NCBI GenBank assembly: GCA_937928685.1
Contig: CALGJU010000213.1
Location: 1-40,833 of the forward strand
Direction of reading: 5' to 3'
DNA from: an uncultured Granulosicoccaceae bacterium
Lineage (GTDB): Bacteria > Pseudomonadota > Gammaproteobacteria > Granulosicoccales > Granulosicoccaceae
Length of the DNA: 40,833 nt
Shown here: positions 19,346-32,013 of the stretch, piece by piece
Layout: every line of letters starts with the position of its first letter
Position numbering within the stretch: position 1 is the first letter of the stretch
Program-made: the position numbers and the translations under genes
The notes under the pieces: generated by a model
Seen by the model: the letters and a program-made list of their open reading frames with translations, nothing else
The model's database searches: none
What the model was told of the DNA's origin: nothing

Positions 19346-20701
19346 TCAAGCTAAAAATCCTAGTTTGCGTGTATCAAAATTTTTCAAAGAAGGCAGTAAC
19401 TGATCAATTTCCGTACTGTGTAGTCCTAACCAATGCAGCATGGTAGCGGCATATTGGCATACAGCAGTTGTCGGTACGATGCGACCATTTCTGGAGTCAT
19501 CCGGCCCATCAACAAGAATTCTGGGAATTGATCCGTAAATATCACTTCCCGCAACAGCGTTACCCATCACAATATGGTGATTTCCCCAGCCGTGGTCGGT
19601 GCCATCGCCGTTACTGGTGACAGAGCGCCCGAAGTCTGATGTAGTAAAACTGACGACGTTTTCCTGATGACCAATCTCAAGCAGTGCCTGATTAAAAAAC
19701 TCAAGTGCCGAGGCAATGTTGGCGTACAGCGCGGGTTGTTTTTCAAGCTGGTAGTCGTGGGTATCAAAACCGCCAAGCTCGACATAAAACAACTGCCGGT
19801 AGAGGCGAAACTCATCTTTGATGGAAATCAGTTTTGCAACCATCGCCAACTGATCAGCCAATGGGTTATCTTTGGGAACGGGTGTTTGTAGCTCGCCGCG
19901 TTTGGCAAGCGCTGCTCCCACGTTGGTAGACAGGACTAATGCTCTGGACTGTAGCTCGGCGTAAGCCTGTTCAAAAACGTTGTTGTATTGTGCGTGCAAC
20001 AATTGAATAAAGGCTTCGCGGCGCGGCATTTGCCATTTGGATTGGTGATCTCCCATTCCTGCGTAGCTGCGTACGCCGTCACTATTGATATTGAAGGCGG
20101 AAAAATCGCCGCCTGATTGCCAGTCATTGCTGCCACTGAGGCTGATAGAGGCTAGGTTTGGATTGGGTTGATTTCTGCTGACAATATCAGCGGCACGTGC
20201 ACCCCAGCCTGCGTTTGATTGGTGATAGTGATTGAGCTTTTGCCACTGACGAGTCTGATCGTTGTGAGAAAAAAGATGTTCCGGTAAGCGAATAGATTTG
20301 TTGCGAACATCCTCTGCAGTACCTGGTTCAAGCAGGGTGCCGACATTAGATTGAAATGCCAGCTGGCCACTTTCAAATAACGGTTTAAGTGCGGCCATAT
20401 GGGGGTTGAGCCCGACAGCAGTGGTATTGGCCGTTACAGGATTCAGTAACAGGAGATCATTGGCCGGTACAGCAAGATGGCCGCGCCCTTGAGCGTATTC
20501 AGCGTAGCCGGCACCGGCGGCTGGAACGATCATGTTAAATCCGTCATTGCCACCGTTTAAGTGGATGCACACCAGGGCACGATAATCAGCGCCACTTGCC
20601 TGAGCGTGGGCAAACTTTGTCACTGAACCACCGGCCAGACCTGCGCCAAGGATAGTGCGACAACCGAGTTCTATAAATTTTCTGCGAGTGTATTTATTCA
20701 T
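19346..20701 (-). CDS. DUF1501 family Tat-exported protein
   Basis: A 451-residue protein. The ATG at 20701 begins MNKYTRRKFIELGCRTILG, a twin-arginine signal (TRRKF), cleaved near AHA-QA. The frame is open further up, but that overlaps the DUF1800 gene. DUF1501 proteins are sulfatase/alkaline-phosphatase-like in fold. Seen here are CIHLNGGNDGFNMIVP, LAFQSNVGTLLEPG, ELGGFDTHDYQLEKQ, FTTSDFGRSVTSNGDGTDHGWGNH and GSIPRI, all typical. It is 13 bases downstream of the DUF1800 gene, a pairing found widely in Proteobacteria and Planctomycetes. The enzymatic role is not established. Confidence 0.9.
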   Translation of the reverse strand: MNKYTRRKFIELGCRTILGAGLAGGSVTKFAHAQASGADYRALVCIHLNGGNDGFNMIVPAAGAGYAEYAQGRGHLAVPANDLLLLNPVTANTTAVGLNPHMAALKPLFESGQLAFQSNVGTLLEPGTAEDVRNKSIRLPEHLFSHNDQTRQWQKLNHYHQSNAGWGARAADIVSRNQPNPNLASISLSGSNDWQSGGDFSAFNINSDGVRSYAGMGDHQSKWQMPRREAFIQLLHAQYNNVFEQAYAELQSRALVLSTNVGAALAKRGELQTPVPKDNPLADQLAMVAKLISIKDEFRLYRQLFYVELGGFDTHDYQLEKQPALYANIASALEFFNQALLEIGHQENVVSFTTSDFGRSVTSNGDGTDHGWGNHHIVMGNAVAGSDIYGSIPRILVDGPDDSRNGRIVPTTAVCQYAATMLHWLGLHSTEIDQLLPSLKNFDTRKLGFLA

Positions 20702-20714
20702 ATGATCCGTACCG

Positions 20715-22433
20715 CTATCGTTGCACTGCAGCTTCTGGGGATGAGACAAACAGAAACAGCAGGTCTTCTGCCCGAATCTCTGATGATGCGTTTTTACGTG
20801 CGTCAAGCAGGTAGTCCGCCTGCGTGCGCAAATTGTCACTGAGTGGTTTGCCAAGCGTCAGCTTGCTGAGCAATTCGTAGAGCGATTCGCGATCATCATC
20901 CATTAACATCAGTCTGGAAATATCCACTGGCGCTAAATTGCGCTCGGAGGTTGACTCAGTGTTGTTCCAGACGCTGTGGGCAAGCATGGCACTGGTGATG
21001 TCAATAATGCTGCTTTCATTGTGGATCTGAAATTCCGGCGACTTTAAGCCCATATCGCGTATTGCACCGCTCTGGCTAAAGGCGGGTGAGAAGAAATTAA
21101 AAACAGAGGGTGATTGCAATGGTGCTTGTGCCAGTCTGTTTTTTAACCAACCGTAGCTGAAATCCGGATGTGCCGGGTTGCCATTAAATGCCCGCCATAG
21201 AGAGACCAGCCGCACCAGGGGTTCGCGAAGTTTTCCAAAAGCCTCCGGGTCCTGCCGGTATCCATTCATTGCCTCGTCATCGAGCAGTGTGGCTGCCACC
21301 ACAGCACCCATGTTGCCGCGCACGCCGGTGCCGTCATCGTTGAAGGTGTCGGCTACGCGCTTTACAAAACCTGCTGACGGATTGCTGGTGACCAGTTGTG
21401 AGATTAAATGTTTGGCAAAAAAGGGAGCAACATTTTTATGATTAAATATATTGTCCAGTGCATCGTTAAGATCTTGCTCCGCTGTTTGGCCGGCGGGAAG
21501 CACTACGCCGTTTAAAAGGGTTTTTTCTCCGATGTCGTGGCGTGCCTGATAGGCTTCCATCGGTGTATACCAATCCTTGTTTTTCGGATAGTTCCAATTC
21601 TCTACGCCGGTAAAATGCCAGCCGGTAAATACATGTGCAAACGCCTCTATCACCTGCTGATCATAAGTGGGTATCGGTGTACCGTTGTTGTCCAGCAGCA
21701 CAGAGCCGTCAGCCGCCATTTGTACCAGACCGATAGAGAACAACTGAAGTAGTTCCCGGGCGTAGTTTTCATCCGGCCTGATGCCGTTTTCAGGATCAGG
21801 CTTCTGGTTGCCTTTCATGCTGAGGTAGTCGCCCATAATCGGGCTCAGTGTGACAAGCTCCATTAGCTCACGGAAATTGCCGAAACTATTGGCGACTAAG
21901 ATATCGTAGTAGTTGGACAACGCTGCCTGCTCGCCCCCCAGGCCGCCCTGATCAGACACGACAAAGAATTGTGACAAGGCATACGCGACACGCTGTCTCA
22001 GTTGATCATCGGCATTGGTGGCATTTTCAAGCCAGCTGTTCACGTGTTCGCCCCAACGAGGTGGGTTGTGTTGTCGTGTCACTGGCAGCAGAAACGTTGC
22101 AGGTTTCTGCATCTGCTCTGCTACCCATGCCACGTAGCCAATGTCGCGCAAGCGAGCAATACTGGCTTCTGTCGGGCCAAAACTCGCACGATGAAGAAAG
22201 CGGGCGGCCTCGAAGTCATTGTCTATTTTTTGCGGCAGTGCTGCGCCCAGCGAAGGGAGACCGTCAGTATCAATTTTATAGGTGCTGCTGACACTCCCGG
22301 TATCAATACCGTTTTCGTTGAATAGCTTGTCGCCACCTCCGCCGCAGGCACCTAGCAGTAAACCGCCGGCGGCAATCAGTGCACTGGCTGAGAAACGTAT
22401 TGCTGTTTTCTTAAAACCGGAGTTAGTTCGCAT
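20715..22433 (-). CDS. DUF1800 family lipoprotein
   Basis: A 572-residue protein starting at the ATG at 22433 (MRTNSGFKKTAIRFSAS), with lipobox LLGAC followed by GGGGD, so it is probably a lipoprotein. DUF1800 signatures are FEAARFLHRASFGPTEASIARL, QRVAYALSQFFVVS, NYARELLQLFSIGL, VIEAFAHVFTGWHF, LIDNIFNHKNVAPFFAKHLI-like text and PLVRLVSLWRAFNG. The DUF1501 gene follows after 13 bases. The frame is open to 22502, but the upstream residues are Lys-rich and do not resemble a signal. The gene is divergent from recQ. The biochemical role of the pair is unknown. Confidence 0.9.
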   Translation of the reverse strand: MRTNSGFKKTAIRFSASALIAAGGLLLGACGGGGDKLFNENGIDTGSVSSTYKIDTDGLPSLGAALPQKIDNDFEAARFLHRASFGPTEASIARLRDIGYVAWVAEQMQKPATFLLPVTRQHNPPRWGEHVNSWLENATNADDQLRQRVAYALSQFFVVSDQGGLGGEQAALSNYYDILVANSFGNFRELMELVTLSPIMGDYLSMKGNQKPDPENGIRPDENYARELLQLFSIGLVQMAADGSVLLDNNGTPIPTYDQQVIEAFAHVFTGWHFTGVENWNYPKNKDWYTPMEAYQARHDIGEKTLLNGVVLPAGQTAEQDLNDALDNIFNHKNVAPFFAKHLISQLVTSNPSAGFVKRVADTFNDDGTGVRGNMGAVVAATLLDDEAMNGYRQDPEAFGKLREPLVRLVSLWRAFNGNPAHPDFSYGWLKNRLAQAPLQSPSVFNFFSPAFSQSGAIRDMGLKSPEFQIHNESSIIDITSAMLAHSVWNNTESTSERNLAPVDISRLMLMDDDRESLYELLSKLTLGKPLSDNLRTQADYLLDARKNASSEIRAEDLLFLFVSSPEAAVQR

Positions 22434-22585
22434 TTTCACTGCCAATCTGTGAGTGATCCCGGTGCATTTATTTTGTTTTTTTTTCCGGGCTGCGAGATAC
22501 AATGTGGTTGCACCTCGTTGAATCTTCCGCAGGTTGGTGGTCTTATCGGGAGTGCGCCGCTAAAACTTTAAGCAGGTGTTTCGCA

Positions 22586-26756: not shown

Positions 26757-27144
26757 AGACGTAATTACTCTATTCGTGACGCCAACGTGGCTTGTAAGAA
26801 GGCGACGTTGATATTAGTCAATTGTGGAGTTTAATGGCGCCATTTGTGTGGATTCCAACCACTGAGTGGTGGACGTTAAAGCACCATATAGCTGTTAGAT
26901 TGAATAGACTGATAACAGGTCGGGCCTCGCGGATCATACACATGCATGGGCCTTCACCCTAATATTTCTCTTCAGCAGAACTTGAGTGTCCAAGCGTTAA
27001 TGTTGTCTTGTTTGCGCACTCGGTTCACTCCGCATGAATCAATAACTCCATTTGTCGCTCAAATTTGTCTCATTGCTTAAATGGCGTAAAGCAATTATTG
27101 ATATTGCCGTTTCAGATTGGAGAGCCGCTTTTCTATGGAAGAAC
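26757..27144. other. Intergenic region upstream of the giant lipoprotein gene
   Basis: 388 bases between divergent genes. A perfect small inverted repeat ACCACT-G-AGTGGT at 26858-26870 could be an operator. The frame of the lipoprotein gene is open through 27052-27144 with a TTG at 27052, but no ribosome site supports translation from there. I see no clear promoter hexamers. Confidence 0.45.
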
Positions 27145-30100
27145 ATGCATTTTATCAAGCAAATAGCAATGGTTGTGGGCATTGTCTTCCTATTAACAGG
27201 CTGTGGTGTTGACAATAATACTAACGCCCCGGGTTTTGAATCTGCGCTGGTGCAGGTGCCACTGAAAGATCGTCGCATTGCGATTGTCCATTCGCAGACA
27301 AGCAAGGCAGGATTTTACGATCCATTTGCTTATAACCAACTTTTTGCGTCAGTACAGCATCAATCAATGATGGCTGGCATTCCGTTTGATCTGCTCGATG
27401 AAGCAGGCCTTGCGTCGACGGCCAACCTGCTCGACTACGATCTCATCGTTATTCCGAGTTTCACACGTGTGAATGCAGCTGACCGGGCGGCAATAAAAAC
27501 TCGTTTGCTTCAAGCGCAGGAAAATGGAGTGGGCTTGATAGCCTCTGGTGAGTTTCTGTCATTGATGCCTGACGGCTCTGCATTTGCAGACTACAGCAGC
27601 GCGATGGTTGAAGTGCTCGGCGTAGAGCCGACAGAATTTCTAAGTGGAGTGGCTGCCTCTGTCAGGGTGGCCAATAATACCCATCCGGTGAGTAAAGTTT
27701 ATCAGCCAGATGAAGAACTGACTGCCTACGAGCAAATTTGGTTTGGTCATTTCACCGCGGTAGAAGGCGAACAGTCAACACCGCTTACTTTAATTAGGTC
27801 CGGCGCAGCCACTTATAACGGCGCGCAAATAATCGATCGCGCCAGCCGTGTGGTGCACTTCGCGAATGAAGAAGTGATGGCGGATAACAATCTATTGTGG
27901 CGGGTCATTCAGTGGATGGTTTATGGAGACGTAGCGCCTGTGTCACTGCAGGTGTCGAGATCAGATCATGTGTTTTTAGCGCGCAACGATATGGATCAGG
28001 CCATGATAGCCGCGGAGCTTGCGCAAACCGAAATACCGCTGCTGGAAATCATAAAAGAGTGGAAGCGTGACTACAATTTCGTTGGCTCTTATTACATCGA
28101 TATCGGTAATAATCCAGCCGCAGGTGAGTACACTGATTGGGGTGTATCAGCACCGTTGTATCAACAGTATATTGCGCTTGGCAACGAGATCGGCACGCAC
28201 TCGTGGACACACCCGCATCATACCAGCGACCTGACAGCCGAGGAACTAAAGTTCGAATTCCAGGACAGTGCGGCAGAAATTGCAACGCAGATGGGTGTGC
28301 CGGTTGCCGGGGCCGCTGTGCCCGGAAATTCCGAATCGCTGTTTGTAGTGGAAACACTTAATCCATGGCTTGACTACTTGAGCGGTCGCTCTGGAACCGT
28401 TGGTTCCGGCTATCCCGGTGCTTTCGGTTTTCTGGAGCCGCAGCATGACATGATGTACTTCAGCCTAAACCTATCTCCGGATTTTGGTTTGATTGATTTT
28501 CAAAACTACACTCCAGCCCAGGCCAAAGTGATCTGGAAAAGTGAAATTGATAACGCGCTCAAACATGCTCAGCGGCCGATCGTGCATTGGTTGTGGCATG
28601 ACTATGGTCCCACTACGCAGACAGCGGCTGGCTTGTACACCAAAGATATGTTCACTGATACGATTGCTTATGCAAAAGATCTTGGTGCTGAATTCACCAC
28701 CGTAGACGACATGCATAAACGAATTCGTACCTTTGCAGGTGCCAACTTAACGGTCGGGTCGTCCAATGTGATCAACGCGTCGGTAACGGCTGCAGGTGTG
28801 GGGCAGTTCGCATTAAAGGTGGCAGATGATGTACAAATTAAAAAGGTAGAAAACTGGTATGCGTACGATGACGCACAGGTCTTTTTGCCCGAAGACGGCG
28901 GGCAGTTTGAAATATCTCTGGGCCCGGTGGCGGATGCGGTAACTCACATTACTCAGCTGCCGATGCGTGCGCGTTTGATAACATTGACGGGTGACGGTAA
29001 TCAGCTGAGTTTCAGCATGCAAGGTGAAGGTGAAGTAACCATCGAGCTAAGTGAGGGAATGAAGCAAAACGTGTCTGTCACTGGCGCAGATTCATTTACC
29101 GAGAACGAAGGCGTGCTTACTTTGCGCTTTAATAGCTCGTCTATCTACAATGTAGAAATCACGGCTGTGGCTCCGATCAACACAGCGCCTGTTGCGCCCG
29201 GTGGGTCAATAGAGGCGGAGTCTTCGGTGACCACATCCATTACATTGTCTGGTTCAGATAGTGATGGTGATGTGTTGAGTTATTTGATTCAAACTCAGCC
29301 GGTAAACGGCACGCTTGCTGGCACAGCGCCCAATCTTGTGTATGTATCAAACGCTGGCTACGAAGGTGCTGATTCGTTTAGTTACCTGGTTAACGATGGT
29401 GCAGTGGACAGTGAATCAGCGCAGTTTACTGTGGTGGTGACATTACCACCGCCGCCGAATACGGCACCACTTGCGAATGAGCTGGTGCTGGAAACGGTAG
29501 TAGATCAACCGCTGCCTTTCAGGCTAAGTGGAAGTGACAATGAAAATCAACCATTGTCGTTTGCAGTTACCGGGCAACCTGCCAGTGGTGTCATCAGCGG
29601 CACAGTGCCTGATTTGATCTATACGCCAAATGCGGGCTTCTCCGGTCGCGATTCAATTGAATTTACCGTCAGTGATTCAGCCGTAACCAGTACGCCTGGT
29701 ACTGTGGTTTTTAATGTAGAGCCGCAGCTTAGCGAGGCCATTGGTACTATTTCCAACCCTGCCGTTATTGCGTTGGATGGCAACATCACCGACTGGGGCA
29801 ATCTGGTTTCGTTCGGTGAAGAGCCACAAGAGGTGACGGGAGTAAACAACACTATTGACTGGCGTGAGGCGTGGATGGGACATGACGCCACGCATCTGTA
29901 CCTGGCTTATCGTGAGTACGATACAGCTCAGTTGCTGTGGGGTAACCAGATTTTCATCGACACAGACAGTGATTCGGTCAGCGGGTTTCGTGGCTTCTCC
30001 AGAGAGTATACGATTGGTGCGGATTATATGATCGAAGGTAACGCGTTGTTTCGTTATGATTCGGACCTTCAGGATCAGTGGTTGTGGACTTTTATCGGCA

Positions 30101-32013
30101 GTGTAGAAACCGCCGTCAATGGAGATACCGTTGAGCTTAAATTGGCTCGCTCAGCGCTGGATAATCCTGACAACCTACTGTTATTCTTTCGTGGAGACAG
30201 CTCTGCCTCGTCTGGTGATGCGCTGGATTTTTACCCCGATAGTGTTGCCGATCCGGCAGCGGTGCTGCGCAGCAGACGGTTCAGTTACTCAGTGAATCCG
30301 AACCCGAATATAGAAAACTTTGCACCGATTGCGTTTTCACAGTCAATTAAAATCAGTAACAACGCAAGTTATCCACTGACGCTCACCGGCTTTGATCAGG
30401 ATGGGGATCCGCTGGATTTCGTTGTAGATACTCAACCGACACAAGGAACGCTTACCGGAGTCGCGCCGAACCTTGTCTACACGCCAAACGTTGGTGCGAC
30501 TCAGGATCTCATTGCTTTTAGAGTAAACGACGGCACTGCATTTAGTAACTCACGGTCTGTGCAGTTTTTTATGCTTCAACCCCCGAGTGTTAATAACCGA
30601 CCATCCGCTAATAACCAAACACTGAGTGTTGCAGGCCCCTCTGCCTCGTTGTCGATTACCCTTACCGGATCTGATGTTGACGGTGATGCATTGTCCTATC
30701 GTGTGATCAATCAGCCGACTACTGGTACCCTGGCTGGAACGCCTCCTGATCTTACCTACACTGCTTCCGCAAATATTGGTGTGGATAGTTTTACCTATGT
30801 TGTCAGTGACGGTGTGTTAGACAGTGCTGCTGCAACCGTGACTGTTAATGTTGAAGCACTGCCACCGGTTAACATGGTTCCACAGGCAAGTGGCTTGTCT
30901 TTGACGACGGCTTTTGACACTGCCATTGGTGTGACATTGGATGGTGTTGATGCAGACGGTGATACCTTGAGTTACACCGTTGTCACTCAGCCGCTTCTCG
31001 GTACTTTAACCGGCACACCACCGCAACTCACTTATGTGCCGTTCAATGCTGCGGTCGGATCTGATAGTTTTACGTTTAAGGTCAGCGACGGTATAGATGA
31101 CAGTGCAGTGGCAACCGTTGCCATTGACGTCTTGCCGCAAGTGCTTGCTAACAGAGCGCCTGAAGCCAACGGCCAGGCATTGGCAACAGCGTTCGGTATG
31201 CCGTTAAATATAGTGCTGAGCGGCCGCGATCCGGAACAGTCAGTACTTAGCTACAGTACGCTAACCCAACCGCTTGGTGGCACAATTACAGGCACTGCCC
31301 CCAATCTGATTTATACACCGGATGCAGCTTTTACAGGCGTTGATAGTTTCACTTTTGAGGTGTTTGACGGTGAGCTAAATAGTCCGGCCGCAGCGATTAC
31401 GATTGATGTGGGCCCAGCGCCCTCGGGAGCGATCTCGAATCCGGTAAGCACTATGACGGTTGATGGTGCGCTGTCCGATTGGAATGGTTTACAGACATTG
31501 GGTACGGATCCGGCTGACATCGCCGGTATCAGAGCAAACAACCCGCTTGACTGGCGTCAGGCATGGGTAGCCCATAGCACTACCGATCTCTTTATTGCCT
31601 ATCGGAACCATGAAGCGGTCAGCTTGAGCTGGGGTCACGGTATTTACGTTGATGTCGATGGAGATATCAATACCGGTTTTCGTGGATTTTATGGTGAGTT
31701 TCCAATAGGCGCTGATTATCTGATTGAAACTGATGATGTACAGCGTTACACAGGAACGGGCAATAATTGGGGATGGATAACGGTCAGTCAGGCAACGGTT
31801 GCCACTGCCGGTGAGATAGCGGAACTGTCGTTTCCGCTAAGTGCGTTTAATCCGCAGGGGGTGGCGCAGAGTCGGCCACAGAATTTACAGTTTTATTTCC
31901 GTGCCAACAACAGCGCTTTTGGCGGTGATACGGTGGACAACTTTCCCGATGCAGCAAACGACATCGCGGCTCCGTCTGCTCAGAGATCTTTGGCTTATCA
32001 GTTAGCGCCGTAA
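27145..32013 (+). CDS. Giant multidomain lipoprotein: GATase-like, NodB-like deacetylase, Ig-like repeats, two CBM9-like domains
   Basis: A 1622-residue protein. GGAAG precedes the ATG at 27145, and MHFIKQIAMVVGIVFLLTGC gives a lipobox with Cys at 20. Residues 40-260 look like a class I GATase-like Rossmann domain (RIAIVHSQ, YDLIVIPSFTR, GVGLIASGE) without a clear catalytic Cys-His pair. Residues 270-530 resemble a NodB polysaccharide deacetylase, with RNDMD in place of the usual TFDDG and HSWTHPHH as the metal-binding HxxxH. Six Ig/cadherin-like repeats follow in two blocks (about 682-860 and 1055-1425), each built as NxAP...LTGSDxDGDxLSY...GTLTGTAPxLxYTP...DSFTFxVSDG. Two CBM9-like domains cover about 865-1052 and 1428-1622. 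It is probably a surface or secreted polysaccharide-modifying protein. A terminator follows. Confidence 0.82.
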   Translation: MHFIKQIAMVVGIVFLLTGCGVDNNTNAPGFESALVQVPLKDRRIAIVHSQTSKAGFYDPFAYNQLFASVQHQSMMAGIPFDLLDEAGLASTANLLDYDLIVIPSFTRVNAADRAAIKTRLLQAQENGVGLIASGEFLSLMPDGSAFADYSSAMVEVLGVEPTEFLSGVAASVRVANNTHPVSKVYQPDEELTAYEQIWFGHFTAVEGEQSTPLTLIRSGAATYNGAQIIDRASRVVHFANEEVMADNNLLWRVIQWMVYGDVAPVSLQVSRSDHVFLARNDMDQAMIAAELAQTEIPLLEIIKEWKRDYNFVGSYYIDIGNNPAAGEYTDWGVSAPLYQQYIALGNEIGTHSWTHPHHTSDLTAEELKFEFQDSAAEIATQMGVPVAGAAVPGNSESLFVVETLNPWLDYLSGRSGTVGSGYPGAFGFLEPQHDMMYFSLNLSPDFGLIDFQNYTPAQAKVIWKSEIDNALKHAQRPIVHWLWHDYGPTTQTAAGLYTKDMFTDTIAYAKDLGAEFTTVDDMHKRIRTFAGANLTVGSSNVINASVTAAGVGQFALKVADDVQIKKVENWYAYDDAQVFLPEDGGQFEISLGPVADAVTHITQLPMRARLITLTGDGNQLSFSMQGEGEVTIELSEGMKQNVSVTGADSFTENEGVLTLRFNSSSIYNVEITAVAPINTAPVAPGGSIEAESSVTTSITLSGSDSDGDVLSYLIQTQPVNGTLAGTAPNLVYVSNAGYEGADSFSYLVNDGAVDSESAQFTVVVTLPPPPNTAPLANELVLETVVDQPLPFRLSGSDNENQPLSFAVTGQPASGVISGTVPDLIYTPNAGFSGRDSIEFTVSDSAVTSTPGTVVFNVEPQLSEAIGTISNPAVIALDGNITDWGNLVSFGEEPQEVTGVNNTIDWREAWMGHDATHLYLAYREYDTAQLLWGNQIFIDTDSDSVSGFRGFSREYTIGADYMIEGNALFRYDSDLQDQWLWTFIGSVETAVNGDTVELKLARSALDNPDNLLLFFRGDSSASSGDALDFYPDSVADPAAVLRSRRFSYSVNPNPNIENFAPIAFSQSIKISNNASYPLTLTGFDQDGDPLDFVVDTQPTQGTLTGVAPNLVYTPNVGATQDLIAFRVNDGTAFSNSRSVQFFMLQPPSVNNRPSANNQTLSVAGPSASLSITLTGSDVDGDALSYRVINQPTTGTLAGTPPDLTYTASANIGVDSFTYVVSDGVLDSAAATVTVNVEALPPVNMVPQASGLSLTTAFDTAIGVTLDGVDADGDTLSYTVVTQPLLGTLTGTPPQLTYVPFNAAVGSDSFTFKVSDGIDDSAVATVAIDVLPQVLANRAPEANGQALATAFGMPLNIVLSGRDPEQSVLSYSTLTQPLGGTITGTAPNLIYTPDAAFTGVDSFTFEVFDGELNSPAAAITIDVGPAPSGAISNPVSTMTVDGALSDWNGLQTLGTDPADIAGIRANNPLDWRQAWVAHSTTDLFIAYRNHEAVSLSWGHGIYVDVDGDINTGFRGFYGEFPIGADYLIETDDVQRYTGTGNNWGWITVSQATVATAGEIAELSFPLSAFNPQGVAQSRPQNLQFYFRANNSAFGGDTVDNFPDAANDIAAPSAQRSLAYQLAP
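29740..30300 (+). repeat. First copy of duplicated CBM9-like domain (coding)
   Basis: Encodes ISNPAVIALDGNITDW ... IDWREAWMGHD ... LYLAYREYD ... GFRGFSREYTIGADYMIEG. It aligns along its whole length with the C-terminal copy at 31429-32013. The pattern (a small beta sandwich with a DGxxxDW start and an acidic DTDSDS metal-like loop) resembles the CBM9/DOMON-like carbohydrate-binding fold. Confidence 0.7.
31429..32013 (+). repeat. Second copy of duplicated CBM9-like domain (coding)
   Basis: Encodes ISNPVSTMTVDGALSDW ... LDWRQAWVAHS ... LFIAYRNHE ... GFRGFYGEFPIGADYLIET at the very C-terminus. The two copies share WGxxIxxDxDxDxxxGFRGF and the final RRS/QRS-Y strand, so they come from one duplication, separated by four Ig-like repeats. 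Confidence 0.7.

Follow-up and report, generated by a model that had tools for sequence, protein, structure and literature searches.

A three-domain core layout and the theme of a deacetylase acting on Pel or GAG are already known, and the described systems closest to the locus treated here are, as far as the accessible parts of their reports go, PelA of Pseudomonas (CE21; PMC12022489), PelADA of Bacillus cereus (CE26/CBM114; PMC13254593) and Agd3 of Aspergillus (CE18/CBM87; PMC7229062). PelA, which deacetylates Pel before export, has an alpha/beta domain before the deacetylase, a first motif (MT1) of the form His-x-Asp-x-Asp, the HxxxH of MT2 and the MT5 histidine and lacks the MT3 arginine, and the His two residues before the base Asp has been proposed to activate this base (PMC12022489). 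PelADA is a stand-alone Pel deacetylase outside the cytoplasm in which an alpha/beta/alpha binding domain, the carbohydrate esterase (CE) and a beta domain follow each other, with adjacent Asp-Asp in MT1, a base-coordinating Arg late in the protein (R458) and, in the available text of the report, no description of tail modules (PMC13254593). Agd3 has the same three-domain order with a GATase-like domain devoid of the catalytic triad, adjacent Asp-Asp in CM1, a distance between CM1 and CM2 of >120 and R613 in CM3, and its homologues have a GH114 partner gene (PMC7229062). From published residue numbers, MT1 and MT2 are 70 residues apart in PaPelA, 132 in Agd3 and 87 in PelADA (PMC12022489, PMC7229062, PMC13254593).

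The gene compared here with these systems lies on the forward strand at 27145..32013 of the window, the whole analysed stretch of 40,833 nucleotides from an uncultured Granulosicoccaceae bacterium. Translation of the open reading frame confirmed a protein of 1622 aa from the ATG at 27145; the longest frame opens at a TTG at 27052 (1653 aa), and the ATG starts a signal peptide (27145..27204) ending in the lipobox LLTGC with Cys20, the sole cysteine of the 1622-aa lipoprotein. Asp at position +2 after the lipobox cysteine is a signal for retention in the inner membrane; the residue after Cys20 is Gly, thus this signal is absent. The core unit (residues 36-671) consists of a GATase/ThuA-like alpha/beta domain without the nucleophile cysteine (27250..27954), a NodB-like (carbohydrate esterase) domain (27952..28764) and, probably, a conserved beta-rich domain that closes it (28765..29157), the fold of the latter being assigned by analogy. 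The NodB-like domain has MT1 as RNDMD (R280-D284, 27982..27996), MT2 as HSWTH (352-356, 28198..28212), an MT3-like AVPG in which the Pro is kept and the Arg is absent (28315..28326) and MT5 as LWHD (483-486, 28591..28602). The tail is built from Ig-like (Big_9) repeats 1-2 (29176..29742), a first CBM9-like module (29773..30303), Ig-like repeats 3-6 (30316..31434) and a second CBM9-like module (31459..32010), all on the same strand, with the limits of the Ig-like repeats set by eye.

For the NodB-like domain, Pfam Polysacc_deac_1 (PF01522) gave 21.0 bits with the whole protein and 22.4 with the core at a cut-off of 23.1, and 25.5 in the whole-genome scan, and all 16 homologues scanned matched this family at E<=1 (best 1.8e-7). 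Ten of its 12 PDB matches at E<=10 are chains of the deacetylase or esterase type (best E 4.2e-4, the remaining nine 0.026-0.27), one of them being named xylanase, which we take to be of the CE4 type. The CE4 polysaccharide deacetylases (PF01522) share MT2, MT5 and the Pro of MT3 with the lipoprotein and provide its nearest PDB sequence matches, but their first motif is TFDD, and the lipoprotein differs from them in MT1, in the absent MT3 Arg and in its extra domains. For the alpha/beta domain, ThuA was matched by one of 16 homologues at 4.2e-4 and by a Sulfitobacter homologue at 0.0026, under the cut-off, while the PDB returned a beta-galactosidase chain at E 0.17. A class I glutamine amidotransferase was considered and rejected because the catalytic Cys is absent, the core unit being free of cysteine in 15/16 homologues including that of the window, with three cysteines in that of an Akkermansiaceae MAG (L021). 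Conservation, the Pfam and PDB matches and the counterparts in Agd3 and PelADA, as accessible in their reports, make this domain a candidate carbohydrate-binding domain like CBM87 or CBM114 (PMC7229062, PMC13254593).

The Ig-like repeats have strong library support (Big_9, E 8.8e-63 over six stretches of the whole protein). The CBM9-like module is a true repeated family, of which the window genome has seven copies, distributed over three giant open frames. None of 23 copies matched a CBM9 Pfam family at E<=1, the first copy matched no Pfam family at this threshold, the best match of the 23 was at 0.0096 (Mann_GBD_bact), and no PDB match was obtained at E<=1; CBM9 proper was thus rejected and the label 'CBM9-like' kept by eye. 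The giant lipoprotein of GATase-like, NodB-like, Ig-like and CBM9-like parts that had been proposed in the earlier note is therewith confirmed, with weaker support for the GATase part and with a resemblance only to CBM9. The same note had not recognised this combination of parts; the order of the core has been published for Agd3 and PelADA, and the tail of Ig-like and CBM9-like modules is additional to it. CBM9-like modules also occur elsewhere in the window's MAG, three of them together with Big_9 in a lipoprotein-like open frame of 2467 aa (L042, G000:C79, 843-8243, minus strand) that in addition has glyoxal/galactose-oxidase-like, F5/8C, PKD, propeller-like and cytochrome-c-like parts, and two of them with Big_9 repeats in an open frame of 1948 aa (L043, G000:C63, 1465-7308, minus strand) with GHL6/GHL10-like and GH42-trimerisation-like parts, all under Pfam cut-offs.

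The core unit was found in 12/48 genomes of the order, including the window genome, and one of them has a second copy. A search of 398 genomes of the phylum with the single sequence returned the window genome only, and a profile of the NodB part gave four matches in 369 genomes of the class, two of them weak and two strong, namely the window genome and G664, whose protein is the core alone in a lipoprotein-like frame of 723 aa and has RNDMD as well. Scanning of genome contigs yielded 15 loci, of which 11 belong to Granulosicoccaceae MAGs (one MAG having two) and one each to another gammaproteobacterium (L020), to Akkermansiaceae (L021), to another verrucomicrobium (L022) and to Lewinella (L023). 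The plasmid search added seven records, all from Rhodobacterales, with 36-38% identity over 94-98% of the core unit, of which two are plasmids from a single Sulfitobacter indolifex strain whose homologues share one protein accession. Among the 11 Granulosicoccaceae loci, eight have two CBM9-like modules, L009 and L013, the latter truncated where its contig ends, have one, and L019 has none. L013 is a second copy, 63% identical to that of the window, in the same MAG as L009, and L019 (8001-10538) has a different tail, by eye with TSP3 and RTX repeats instead of Ig-like and CBM9-like parts. When a set of 20 proteins was searched with a CBM9-like profile built only from sequences of other lineages, the four alphaproteobacterial homologues in it matched (whole-protein E 5e-10 to 2.5e-20), with three or four copies of the module at their start. 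Its presence at one terminus of the enzyme in one class and at the other terminus in another class points to a role of the module related to the substrate of the enzyme.

In 7/7 plasmid records the homologue, annotated as hypothetical protein throughout, is situated inside a pel-like cluster that also contains galE and a galactosaminidase-like gene. It is followed by galE in all seven, in the order glmS then galE in three Cereibacter records, with the pel genes further on; pelF is annotated in six and pelG in five of the seven stretches, with a DUF3492 protein and a hypothetical protein at the places of pelF and pelG in Cereibacter sphaeroides, while the L061 stretch ends within pelF and the Paracoccus cluster crosses the start of its record. 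The galactosaminidase label is backed by tblastn similarity to the hydrolase part of PelA and is taken from the record annotation in L059, L061 and L089-L091; of three proteins scanned with Pfam GH114, that of L058 was over the cut-off and those of L059 and Paracoccus (a GalE fusion) were under it. The Paracoccus protein (L060, 18367-20616, plus strand, 749 aa) is a GalE with a C-terminal GH114-like part (E 0.0022, below the Pfam cut-off), possibly a fusion of UDP-GalNAc supply and polymer cleavage. On both Sulfitobacter indolifex plasmids (L061, L091) the cluster is the same; a HipA-type gene lies upstream of it, and it encloses a RES/Xre pair.

The PelA-like protein next to the homologue has neither HIDGD nor HTYSH nor the MT5 His in 4/4 aligned sequences (L060, L089, L090 and L059, of which L089 and L090 are near-identical), and in the same alignment PelA from four genomes of the window's order retains all three. 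With PelA as tblastn query, L060 was matched at E 1e-35 and L058 at 2e-16; the Sulfitobacter PelA-like protein, for which no PelA tblastn match was found at E 1e-5, is labelled from position and alignment and has a length of only about 410 aa in L059, the annotation of L061 and L091 showing no more than a 172-aa frame. In Cereibacter sphaeroides EBL0706 the PelA-like gene (L058, 21953-24015, minus strand) is annotated as two ORFs; it is single in both C. azotoformans records. As these PelA-like neighbours are without the motifs, the homologue is the obvious candidate for the missing deacetylase. Its end shows weak RTX-like matches in the three homologues scanned, and genes for TolC and an ABC transporter are located nearby in Sulfitobacter, which makes secretion of the Rhodobacterales homologue by a type I route likely.

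This plasmid cluster context is the strongest evidence for the reading that we favour with a probability of about 0.62, according to which the lipoprotein would be anchored at the surface and, with the help of a metal, would N-deacetylate a Pel-like (alpha-1,4-GalNAc) polysaccharide outside the inner membrane. Chief among its competitors is a surface deacetylase for foraging, which would act on environmental polysaccharides such as chitin or acetylated algal glycans and not on self-made Pel; we consider this doubtful, yet the neighbourhood of the gene in its own lineage is in line with it, as the gene is unlinked to pel in the window's genus. The flanking genes code for RecQ, HHH, MFS, TerC, a kinase, an aldose epimerase and citrate synthase (MFS and TerC by eye), and the order RecQ - gene - TerC, common to 6/11 Granulosicoccaceae loci (L009, L010, L014-L017), is uninformative on function; with no polysaccharide cluster among these genes, the window neighbourhood was rejected as a functional clue. 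Further away in the window, DUF1800 and DUF1501 genes are adjacent (19346-22502, minus strand), a pair that is often found together. In favour of foraging are also the presence of the CBM9-like module on the galactose-oxidase-like giant and the weakly GHL6-like protein of the same MAG, as in scavenging repertoires, and the occurrence of the family name Granulosicoccaceae in the accessible parts of kelp-microbiome papers.

Co-occurrence with PelG bears on both readings. Within the order, PelG is found in 34/48 genomes, in 11/12 carriers of the core unit vs 23/36 non-carriers, a difference that is not significant (Fisher P 0.081). The one carrier without PelG is the window's own MAG, in which neither pelG (E<=1e-10) nor pelA (E<=1e-5) was found, a weak absence because this MAG is 77% complete. 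Outside the order, 3/5 carriers, one of them an Akkermansiaceae MAG, have PelG vs 23/369 genomes of the class (binomial P 0.0022), a sample in which three of the 23 matches are weak and which for verrucomicrobia and Lewinella is no more than a rough yardstick; the PelG scan did not find it in the genomes of L022 and L023, a point for foraging. Both this enrichment and the location of 7/7 plasmid homologues inside pel-like clusters argue against foraging and for a Pel-like substrate. The surface polysaccharide enzyme, possibly PelA-like, that had been suggested earlier gains support from these two observations and from the motif pattern, and none from PelG inside the order.

RNDMD, HxxxH, PG and WHDYG are invariant in 20/20 aligned homologues, an alignment that spans four classes or phyla and sequences from 34% identity upward; such constancy down to 34% identity rules out chance. 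The non-standard first motif RNDMD and the retained HSWTH noticed earlier are both present in the lipoprotein. MT1 and MT2 are 68 residues apart in 17/17 homologues, 71 in four plasmid homologues and 66 in the PelA of one genome of comparison (G010). In profile alignment (hhalign) with PelA from the window's order, HIDGD falls opposite RNDMD and THTYSHPF opposite THSWTHPH, at a probability of 25 (alignment A1) or 50 (A6), reached by 0/100 column shuffles and 4/60 block shuffles of the PelA profile; as 4/60 block-shuffled profiles reach the score, it reflects mainly the MT2 block and is no proof of descent, and the RNDMD-HIDGD pairing is co-linear and not independently significant. In Asp-x-Asp, the 68-residue gap and the lacking MT3 Arg, the motif pattern resembles PelA more closely than CE18 or CE26. 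The lipoprotein replaces by Arg, in 20/20, the His of the PelA motif (His526) as accessible in its report (PMC12022489), and we infer that R280, two residues before the base Asp, takes the role of this base-activating His. The lipoprotein differs from PelA in having no GH166 hydrolase domain, in being a lipoprotein or secreted, in its Ig-like and CBM9-like modules and in the weakness of the sequence relation.

That the protein is a divergent member of CE18 or CE26 and not of a separate family appears improbable, although the three-domain order and the GH114 partner are shared with the Agd3 homologues as far as their report is accessible (PMC7229062). At E<=1, Pfam Agd3_CE matched neither in the scan of the window genome nor in 16 homologues, by which CE18 membership in terms of this family was rejected; the profile matched nowhere in 299 genomes of the phylum either, a scan that is hence uninformative on the spread of Agd3_CE. 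No Agd3 chain was among the PDB matches at E<=10 of a set in which the presence of Agd3 and PelADA chains is unconfirmed, no sequence match between PelADA as accessible in its report and the lipoprotein was seen (PMC13254593), and DxD stands in the place of DD. The best reading is that the family sits beside CE18, CE21 and CE26 and, beyond the borderline Polysacc_deac_1, matches no named CE family; no description of it was among the papers listed by a literature search, and the enzyme type appears to be undescribed. A binding or scaffold protein that would hold a Pel-like polymer at the surface by a NodB-like domain no longer catalytic could account for the missing MT3 Arg, the odd MT1 and the many tail modules, and the Rhodobacterales PelA-like proteins are examples of such domains being retained although the motifs are absent, but MT1, MT2 and MT5 residues unchanged in 20/20 sequences of at least 34% identity from four classes or phyla are unlike a decayed enzyme, so that this reading is quite improbable and a dead binding or other non-enzymatic protein in general unlikely.

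For the favoured Pel-like deacetylase, a mechanism can be proposed, all catalytic steps of which are predictions from sequence, as are the fold, the metal site, the substrate and the location. The Cys-free GATase-like domain would guide the polymer chain, as do CBM87 and CBM114. D284, H352 and H356 are predicted to hold a divalent metal, and D282, activated by R280 within MT1, would deprotonate the metal-bound water, with H485 as putative catalytic acid that protonates the leaving amine. The Ig-like repeats may form a stalk, and the CBM9-like modules may keep the enzyme on the polymer or the matrix. In the Rhodobacterales, the homologue with its RTX-type end, presumably secreted, has probably taken over the deacetylation of which the PelA-like protein is no longer capable. 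In the window's order, PelA retains its motifs in 7/7 genomes compared, five of them carriers; a second deacetylase is therefore not obviously needed, and in Granulosicoccaceae the lipoprotein would be an additional deacetylase of the outer surface beside an intact PelA.

A further-reaching version, which is tentative and to which we give somewhat less than even odds, would see here a new CE family that has a base-activating Arg in its first motif (RNDMD) and acts outside the cell. In Rhodobacterales, PelA would then be a dead scaffold, with hydrolysis provided by the GH114 protein and deacetylation by a type-I-secreted, CBM-studded enzyme, so that Pel would be exported acetylated and tailored thereafter, and Granulosicoccaceae would possess a second, tunable deacetylase on the outer surface. 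If true, the combination of a motif-less PelA-like protein with an intact enzyme outside would demonstrate that deacetylation need not be coupled to export, and such clusters would allow the scaffold role of PelA to be probed apart from its chemistry. A family annotated only as hypothetical protein in seven plasmid records would then also have a likely substrate.
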